Position numbers and translations under genes: made by a program. A stretch of DNA of 64,000 nucleotides, from contig NZ_REFO01000014.1 in assembly GCF_003688665.1 (NCBI RefSeq), forward strand, positions 1 through 64,000. The letters are read 5' to 3'. Shown here piece after piece: positions 55,945 to 58,256 of this stretch. The notes below the pieces were generated by a model that saw only the letters and a program-made list of their open reading frames with translations, was not told the origin of the DNA and ran no database searches. This stretch comes from Hydrogenothermus marinus (GTDB taxonomy: Bacteria > Aquificota > Aquificia > Aquificales > Hydrogenothermaceae). Numbering within the stretch: position 1 is the first letter of the stretch; each line of letters opens with the position of its first letter.

Positions 55945-56040
55945 ATGGGCGCTGATAAAAGCCCGAGGATAAACTTTTTCGTAAAAAAATTTTATAAGGA
56001 GGATAGAAAATGGAAAAAACCCTCGGATTGCATATCTTAG
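55945..56040 (+). CDS. Candidate 31-codon leader ORF overlapping speD
   Basis: ATG at 55945 is nine bases after a strong ribosome site (GGAGG, 55931-55935). It runs for 31 codons (starts MGADKSPRINFF) and stops 31 bases inside speD, in another frame. The ribosome passing through it would cross the speD ribosome site (AAGGAGG, 55996-56002) and start. GGGC (55947-55950) can pair with GCCC (55961-55964), and CCGAGG (55963-55968) can pair with CCTCGG (56021-56026) inside speD; the two pairings exclude each other. This would suit translational control of SpeD, but no homologue is known to me. Confidence 0.45.
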   Translation: MGADKSPRINFFVKKFYKEDRKWKKPSDCIS

Positions 56041-56426
56041 CGGATCTTTATGGTGTAGATGGTTCTAAAATTGACCACGTTGAAGATGTTAAAGAACTCT
56101 TAGAAAATGCTGTAAAGTATGCAAATCTCTCTAAATTATCTTCTCATTTCCACCAGTTTTACCCACAAGGAGCAACAGGAGTAATCCTTCTGGAAGAATC
56201 TCATATATCAATCCACACATGGCCAGAACATGGTTATGCTGCCATTGATGTTTATACATGTGGTGGAAAAGAAAAAACATTTAAAGCTATGGAATATATA
56301 ATAAAAACTTTAAAACCAAAAAGAATAGATGAAAAAGTTGCTGAAAGAGGGGTTATTCCTGTTGATCAGTATCTGACGAATATTGAAAAACTAAAGCTTG
56401 AACCTATTAGCGTAGAAGAAAAGTAA
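56010..56426 (+). CDS. speD: S-adenosylmethionine decarboxylase proenzyme
   Basis: 138 residues, the small bacterial/archaeal class. Self-cleavage before Ser64 (LEESHISIHTWPEHG) gives the pyruvoyl enzyme; His69 and Cys84 (YTCGG) are conserved helpers. It makes decarboxylated SAM for spermidine synthesis; agmatine deiminase at 13489 supplies the putrescine branch. Start ATG behind AAGGAGG; a leader ORF overlaps this site. No speE adjacent. Confidence 0.95.
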   Translation: MEKTLGLHILADLYGVDGSKIDHVEDVKELLENAVKYANLSKLSSHFHQFYPQGATGVILLEESHISIHTWPEHGYAAIDVYTCGGKEKTFKAMEYIIKTLKPKRIDEKVAERGVIPVDQYLTNIEKLKLEPISVEEK

Positions 56427-56439
56427 GATTATATGATAT

Positions 56440-56506
56440 TAACCATTCCCTCTAAAATATAAAAGGAATATTATTTTTTAAAATTTTTATATGGAGGGAA
56501 TGGTTA
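56440..56506 (+). promoter_or_regulatory. Inverted repeat hiding the ribosome site of the next gene
   Basis: TAACCATTCCCTC (56440-56452) is the exact reverse complement of GAGGGAATGGTTA (56494-56506). In RNA this 13-bp helix, extended by a G-U and an A-U pair, would cover the ribosome site GGAGGG and the A of the start codon at 56506. No T run follows, so it is not a terminator. The loop is about 41 bases and AT-rich. Confidence 0.6.
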
Positions 56507-56934
56507 TGTCTTTAAATAAAAAATTATTTGAAATTATGCAGGATTTAACCCCTACGGTTATTTCTACAGTAAAAGACGATAAGCCTTATACTACTTTTAT
56601 TACGTGGGCTATTGCTAAAGATGAAAATACTGTAAGAATAGGAGTAAGTACAAACTCTCAAACAGTAGAAAATATAAGAAATAATGAAAATGTTTGTTTT
56701 GAAGTATTTGATAAAGATACTGCTTTATCAGTTTCAGGTAAAGCAAAGATATTGAAAGAAAGTATAGAAGGGATACCTTTCCCTGTAGCTATAATAGAAA
56801 TTGAAGTTGAAGATATTAAAGATAATTTATTCCCAGGTGCTACTATTGAAGGTAAAATACCTTTTGTTCACACTGGAAATATTGAAAAAGCAGAAGAGTT
56901 AGATAATAAAGTATTAAAAGCTTTAAAAGAGTAA
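56506..56934 (+). CDS. Pyridoxamine 5'-phosphate oxidase-fold flavin-binding protein
   Basis: 142 residues from ATG 56506; ATGs at 56491 and 56500 are part of or too near the ribosome site GGAGGG. Split-barrel fold pattern: [23 protein letters not shown], then [26 protein letters not shown]. Family members bind FMN or F420 and act as small-molecule or nitro/heme-related reductases; the substrate is unknown. Its ribosome site lies in one arm of a perfect inverted repeat. trmFO follows after two bases. Confidence 0.82.
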
Positions 56935-56936
56935 AA

Positions 56937-58256
56937 ATGGATAAAAAAGTTTGTGTAATAGGAGCAGGATTAGCTGGAACAGAAGCTGCTTTTAAATTAG
57001 CAGAAGAAGGAATAAAAGTAGATTTATATGAAATGAGACCTATGAAAATGACTCCTGCCCATAAAACCCCTTTTTTTGCAGAAGTAGTATGTTCTAACTC
57101 TCTTGGAAGTTTTGAGATTTGTACAGGCTCAGGACTTTTGAAAGAAGAGATGAAACTTCTTGATTCTTTAATCTTAAAAGTAGCAGAAAAACATAAAGTA
57201 CCTGCAGGTGGTGCTTTAGCAGTTGATAGAGTGAAATTCTCAAAAGAGATAACAGAAATTTTAGAAAATCATCCAAATATAAATGTAATAAGAGAAGAAA
57301 TAAAAAAAATACCAGAAGATTATGAGTATGTAATTATTGCAACAGGACCTTTAACTTCAGAAAAGCTTTCAAAAGAGATTCAAAACTTAACAGGACAAGA
57401 GTATTTATATTTTTATGATGCAATAGCTCCTACAGTAGATGCAGAAACTGTAGATTTTTCAAAAGGTTTTTGGGCAGATAGATATGGAAAAGGTACAGGA
57501 GATTATTTCAATTGTGTATTAACTGAAGAAGAGTATGAGATTTTTTATAATGAACTTTTAAAAGGAGAACAAGTTCCTTTAAAAGATTTTGAAAGGGCAG
57601 TATTTTTTGAAGGCTGTCTTCCAATTGAAGAAATAGCAAGAAGAGGTAAAGAAACTCTTTTATATGGACCAATGAAACCTGTTGGCTTAACAGATCCAAA
57701 AACAGGTAAAAGACCGTTTGCAGTAGTGCAACTTAGAAAAGAAAATAAAGAAGGAACCTTACTTTCATTAGTAGGTTTTCAAACAAAGCTAAAATATCCA
57801 GAGCAAAAAAGAATATTTAGATTAATTCCAGCATTAAAAGATGCTACTTTTGTAAGACTGGGTTCTATACATAGAAATACCTTTATCCAATCTCAAAAGG
57901 TTTTACTTCCTACATTACAACTACGGAAAAATCCTAAAATATTTTTTGCAGGGCAAATTACAGGAGTTGAAGGATATGTTGCTTCTGCAGCAACTGGAAT
58001 CCTTGCAGGAATTAATGTATCAAGATTAATAAAAGGACTTGAACCTGTTATTCCACCAACGGAAACAATGCTTGGAGGCCTTATAAACTATATTACAACT
58101 GAAAAAGATGAGCTACAGCCTATGAATCCTAATTTTGCATTGCTACCAGATTTACCAAAAAAAGTAAAAGATAAAAGAAAAAGAAAACAGCTTAAAGCAG
58201 AAAGAGCTATTAATAAAATGAAAGAGTTTATACAAACCCTCTATGTAAATACGTAA
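56937..58256 (+). CDS. trmFO: Methylenetetrahydrofolate--tRNA-(uracil-5-)-methyltransferase
   Basis: 439 residues. FAD motif [17 protein letters not shown] at the N-terminus, LYEMRP, the Cys region VVCSNSLGS, and the signature [16 protein letters not shown]. It methylates U54 of tRNA using methylene-THF and FAD. Two bases after the PPOX-fold gene. Basic C-terminal tail ([14 protein letters not shown]) is probably the tRNA contact. Confidence 0.95.

Follow-up and report, generated by a model that had tools for sequence, protein, structure and literature searches.

The question raised by this locus is why a gene for a PNPOx-fold flavin-binding-type protein, which lies behind another unit (speD) in the same direction, has its ribosome-binding site (RBS) built into one arm of a perfect inverted repeat. 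We analysed a stretch of 64,000 nucleotides of Hydrogenothermus marinus (assembly GCF_003688665.1, contig NZ_REFO01000014.1, positions 1 to 64,000), hereafter the window, in which TAACCATTCCCTC and its exact complement GAGGGAATGGTTA lie 41 bases apart (Table 1). An initial annotation had described a 13-bp perfect repeat whose second arm contains GGAGGG and ends on the first base of the start codon, and had interpreted it as a translational switch, such as an RNA thermometer or a ligand-sensing leader. The geometry was confirmed: the Shine-Dalgarno sequence (SD) GGAGGG occupies 56493-56498 and the start codon 56506-56508, the latter favoured by its SD and by homologues over an alternative in-frame ATG at 56491. 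Only 13 bases separate the speD stop codon from the left arm, so that, as also claimed, readthrough RNA would contain the structure. The nearest NCBIfam model of the PNPOx protein is PRK06733 (hypothetical protein; 91.0 bits against a cut-off of 93), and the gene is present in 89 of 112 genomes of the order. It is probably co-transcribed with trmFO, which begins two bases 3′ of it and follows it in all six genomes of the genus.

Table 1. Positions of the elements around the inverted repeat and of divergent gene pairs with facing SDs.
Feature	Position	Strand	Description	Basis
speD	56010..56426	+	S-adenosylmethionine decarboxylase; readthrough RNA carries the left arm	PF02675 E 2e-37; TIGR03330 140.6 bits, above cut-off
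Left arm	56440..56452	+	TAACCATTCCCTC; anti-RBS in RNA	sequence; covariation in relatives
Predicted promoter	56446..56474	+	-35 TTCCCT 56446-56451 (in left arm), 17-base spacer, -10 TATTAT 56469-56474 (in loop)	promoter-like score
Loop	56453..56493	+	41 bases; inner A-U helix of about 9 pairs in predicted fold	
Right arm	56494..56506	+	GAGGGAATGGTTA; over most of SD and base 1 of start codon	
PNPOx gene	56506..56934	+	PNPOx-fold flavin-binding-type protein, 142 aa; ribosome site hidden	PF01243 E 3e-8
trmFO	56937..58256	+		TIGR00137 701 bits
Divergent pairs, facing SDs	G000 contig C10 343501/343578, 370937/371027; window 18640/18754			

RNA folding extended the stem inward by nine A-U-rich pairs, to a total of -35.5 kcal/mol, with a z of -4.2 and an equally good fold in 1 of 200 shuffles. 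Opening energies, computed for positions -13 to +3, predicted that in the window's long RNA the RBS stays closed by 13.6 kcal/mol at 65 °C and by 9.6 kcal/mol at 75 °C, whereas in an RNA starting at -25 its opening would cost about 1 kcal/mol at 65 °C. The sequestration of the RBS proposed in the initial annotation is thus supported by predicted folding and opening energies.

To place this value among other genes, we scored the pairing of the RBS region (-20 to +8) with its own upstream 100 nt against dinucleotide shuffles for 399 genes sampled from the same genome. The PNPOx gene ranked first (z -6.6, duplex -29.3 kcal/mol), and because it alone had a z below -6, we rejected the idea that anti-RBS hairpins are a general habit of this genome. 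A repeat element was dropped as an explanation because the arm has no further copies in the genome, where the 13-mer is approached only at a single unrelated site with one mismatch. Several runner-up candidates were divergent gene pairs whose SDs face each other (Table 1), a trivial cause of apparent anti-SD hairpins upstream of both genes. Among the few other strong candidates was an 81-aa ORF at G000 contig C10 7066 on the minus strand (z -5.2), whose SD region is spanned by a perfect stem of 11 pairs (ATGCCTCAGGATA / AATCCTGAGGCAA).

The PNPOx gene follows speD in most Hydrogenothermaceae genomes, and most of these carry an RBS-hiding stem. Across 32 loci of this family, the median z for RBS-upstream pairing was -3.3, with p<0.01 in 19 and p<0.05 in 22; the 37 Aquificaceae homologues, in which the gene is not behind speD, had a median z of -0.03, and none of them reached p<0.01. 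The hairpin was likewise absent from all three Hydrogenothermaceae loci whose PNPOx gene is not directly behind speD (L011, L016 and L070), and no like stem was found at other genes that happen to follow speD. Pairing was not significant at p<0.05 in 7 of the 29 loci directly behind speD (L005, L008, L020, L021-L023 and the borderline L006, p 0.052). One of these, L008, which belongs to the same genus as the window, has no RBS-hiding stem and carries another inverted repeat, TAGTACTACC / GGTAGTACTA, that runs from the speD stop codon to before the SD.

Arm sequences vary by genus while complementarity is kept: GCCATTGTCCTT/AAGGACAATGGC in g1, TCTAGCCCTCCTT/AAGGAGGGCTAGA in g2, TCCTCCAGTT/AACTGGAGGA in g3, CCATTGTTCTTCC/GGAAGAACAATGG in g7 and, with one bulged base in the stem, AACATAGATACCC/GGGTATTCTATGTT in g9. 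In most cases a locus's own left arm binds its own RBS region far better than arms from other lineages do; the exceptions, matched by another lineage's arm, are L007, L009, L010, L006 and L019. When 18 sequences were placed in an explicit register, 95.6% of cells paired, whereas 5000 re-dealings of the left arms averaged 76.6% and never exceeded 91.3%. Both sides have changed at 10 of the 14 pair positions, and three of the remaining four are the start codon itself; in the bulged stem of g9, for example, CATAGA/TCTATG has become CATAGT/ACTATG. The check across the family suggested with the initial annotation therefore came out in favour of conserved, covarying arms. In every genus with the hairpin the right arm lies on the SD and/or the start codon, in L007, L009 and L010 over the spacer and start codon.

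Because the arms covary, RNA pairing is indicated rather than a protein-binding DNA site, and we consider the hiding of the ribosome site at the RNA level well supported. Template switching can maintain complementary arms in the absence of selection, and an operator might lie in the predicted -35 region, with which the left arm coincides; the repeat could accordingly consist of protein-binding half-sites or be a quasi-palindrome with no role in RNA. That origin is quite improbable, given that the genera differ in arm sequence yet keep complementarity to the RBS, that the arms lie about 42 to 89 bases apart, measured between their centres, and that pairing of such strength occurs at 1 of 399 genes and is tied to the speD-PNPOx order. 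DNA looping by a protein was rejected, as arm sequences and spacing are too variable.

We then asked from where the PNPOx gene might be transcribed. The promoter-like site in the window (Table 1) is the best-scoring one in the region but weak (p 0.23), and it would start a short RNA near 56481; a start in the loop yields an RNA without the left arm. At the ten loci of genus g7, where the score is significant, the best promoter consists of TTGTTC in the arm, a spacer of 16-17 bases and TATATT in the loop (p 0.005-0.08), and the stretch TATATTTAAA is invariant in all ten loops. Most other loci have the same layout, with the -35 in the arm, mostly 17 bases and the -10 in the loop, as their first- or second-ranked site, which is suggestive; outside g7 no single locus scores significantly (p 0.08-0.47), and -10 look-alikes arise easily in A+T-rich loops. 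In addition, the left arm is preceded by an intrinsic terminator at each of the ten g7 loci and at L024; the terminator ends 12-24 bases short of the arm (13-24 in g7), which leaves too little room for a promoter whose RNA would include the left arm. The g7 terminator (L025-L039) starts inside the coding end of speD and spans its stop codon (GGAAACAGT-TTAG-GCTGTTTCC-TTTTT). Transcription starting after the left arm, which the initial annotation had named as speaking against a switch, is thus the more likely arrangement, as predicted from the promoter-like pair and the g7 terminators.

The terminators also bear on whether the stem simply ends or stabilises the speD transcript and overlaps the next RBS by accident. 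The stem does stand 13 bases 3′ of speD, which in the window has no other terminator, but no T run follows it, as the initial annotation had already remarked; moreover, the hairpin is kept in relatives that have a separate terminator, and its right arm lies on the SD and/or start codon wherever it occurs. We regard an accidental overlap of this kind as very improbable.

The reading that we consider probable is that the inverted repeat is a readthrough lock, through which the PNPOx gene is translated from its own shorter RNA only. Polymerase running on from speD would produce an RNA with both arms; these would pair, bury the SD and start codon and leave the PNPOx gene untranslated. The gene's own putative promoter, with its -35 in the left arm and its -10 in the loop, would instead give a short RNA whose 5′ end lies beyond the left arm and whose ribosome site is free. 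Both this promoter and the short-RNA start are predictions from sequence, and precedents described below suggest that the pairing would block translation in the cell. A lock of this type is the simplest account: it explains why the stem goes with the speD gene order, why its target (the SD and/or start codon) is fixed while the arm sequence drifts, and why the promoter elements are laid out as they are.

Counting against the lock are the promoter scores outside g7, the seven loci without significant pairing and the arrangement in g3, whose left arm extends into the end of speD and would be melted there by ribosomes translating that gene. The overlap, with the last codons or the stop of speD (L006, L013 and L018), would fit translational coupling, in which ribosomes finishing speD open the hairpin so that output of the second gene follows that of the first, and the short distance from stop to arm in the window points the same way. 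Against coupling, the arm in g7 and L024 lies behind an intrinsic terminator, out of reach of a terminating ribosome, and the stop-to-arm distance is not conserved; we therefore think coupling unlikely.

A thermometer or ligand switch, as favoured by the initial annotation, would make the hairpin the closed state of a long RNA that is translated once heat or a small molecule opens it. A strong RBS-sequestering stem in a thermophile is what this reading expects, and the stems of L006, L025 and L005 do weaken at 75-85 °C. The predicted probability that GGAGG is open in the window stem is, however, 4e-7 at 65 °C and still 5e-4 at 85 °C (approximate values, from nearest-neighbour parameters at 1 M salt), and melting differs widely between relatives. 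Searches of Rfam at the gathering threshold returned only tRNAs and a 5S rRNA, and at a relaxed threshold no thermometer or riboswitch at the element and one weak sub-threshold thermometer match on the opposite strand; sub-threshold matches of the microRNA type were discarded as artefacts of any long stem. No conserved aptamer-like core was found in the relatives' loops, which are of variable sequence and roughly 31-76 bases long, and in g7 a terminator precedes the element. With the hairpin predicted to stay closed at 65-75 °C and well beyond the growth temperature, and neither an Rfam family nor an aptamer-like core at hand, a thermometer or ligand-sensing leader is not supported, and we judge it unlikely.

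The readthrough lock has precedents. In Bacillus subtilis, a hairpin of more than 20 pairs is proposed to block translation of spoIIIG (sigG) from readthrough RNA of the spoIIG operon and is unable to form in transcripts made from the gene's own promoter (PMC5942855, citing earlier work). As at spoIIIG, a chromosomal gene here stands directly behind another unit and the hairpin belongs to the readthrough RNA. Unlike that case, a sporulation sigma factor gene of a Firmicute whose transcription has been studied experimentally, the promoter here is predicted, with a -35 element that seems to belong to the left arm. In the phage T4 genes I-TevI, I-TevII, I-TevIII, segB, soc and e and in mobE of phage Aeh1, the RBS is sequestered only in long RNA initiated upstream, and a promoter immediately upstream yields RNA too short for the hairpin (PMC2988022). 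As at I-TevI, the RBS is predicted here to pair with sequence 5′ of it when the RNA comes from the preceding gene, although the T4 examples are phage genes subject to early/late promoter timing and ours is a cellular gene of a thermophile. Intergenic RNA thermometers and riboswitches also place an RBS-hiding stem between two genes; the present stem differs from them in having no predicted melting in a temperature range, no known motif and no conserved sensing core. The text of a survey of Aquificales non-coding RNAs mentions neither speD nor "thermometer" (PMC4227106). The kind of element is thus known, and its occurrence across the Hydrogenothermaceae is new as far as the literature was searched.

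A second element of the locus lies at the other end of speD. A short ORF with its own SD at 55945-56040, encoding MGADKSPRINFFVKKFYKEDRKWKKPSDCIS before its stop codon, overlaps the first 31 bases of speD (start 56010). It was found in the same frame in all 53 leaders examined from Hydrogenothermaceae and Aquificaceae, with varying length, and its end, PSDCIS followed by a stop, has the same position in 52 of them. Synonymous variation is almost nil at speD codons 4-9, which lie within the overlap; the mean normalised entropy of codons 3-10 is 0.15, compared with 0.78 for the rest of the gene, where the lowest 8-codon stretch has 0.68. From codon 4 on, speD changes fall at sites that are silent in the short ORF, even where SpeD is altered (Leu10 to Ile), with one departure, a Thr4/Ala4 change located before the PSDCIS codons. 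In the exception, L118, and in its congener L128, the usual leader is missing and the constraint is lost. Of 136 genomes of the phylum, 92 contain the exact 18-base overlap motif, and every one of them belongs to the Hydrogenothermaceae or the Aquificaceae; a third family has a similar ORF ending in PSDCTL and a stop, and more distant members of the class do not share the ORF. To judge from these patterns, the short ORF is under extreme selection. Rfam holds no entry for it, and a literature search covering few subscription journals found no description of a bacterial speD short ORF. A small GGGC...GCCC hairpin follows directly after the short-ORF ATG (55947-55966) and stands in the same place in L005-L100 of the Hydrogenothermaceae; it was not seen in Aquificaceae leaders.

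In animal AdoMet decarboxylase mRNA, ribosomes pause at the stop codon of the short ORF MAGDIS when spermidine is high (PMC13025110). The similar ending and the same target enzyme are striking and may be coincidence. As a hypothesis prompted by the sequence, the bacterial short ORF is a candidate arrest peptide controlling AdoMet decarboxylase, perhaps via polyamines, and it may be a more important discovery than the hairpin. If it does sense polyamines, bacteria would have a counterpart to the animal arrest peptide that responds to spermidine. Polyamines stabilise RNA stems, and a long speD-PNPOx-trmFO RNA could conceivably act, along with the conserved short ORF, as a sensor in which a signal linked to speD, such as polyamines or heat, opens or tightens the lock on the PNPOx gene. 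We give this extension little credence; if true, it would link the supply of polyamines with a flavin protein and a tRNA methyltransferase.

To our knowledge, most readthrough locks described so far belong to phage T4 or to a single sporulation gene. The locus described here would add a chromosomal example of which dozens of natural variants exist and in which a promoter's -35 element seems to double as the anti-RBS; across these variants, the arms and the RBS can be followed as they evolve in step. The locus also carries a warning that an intergenic RBS-hiding hairpin by itself is no evidence of a thermometer or riboswitch. Such a lock would show that adjacent bacterial genes can stay independent at the level of translation.
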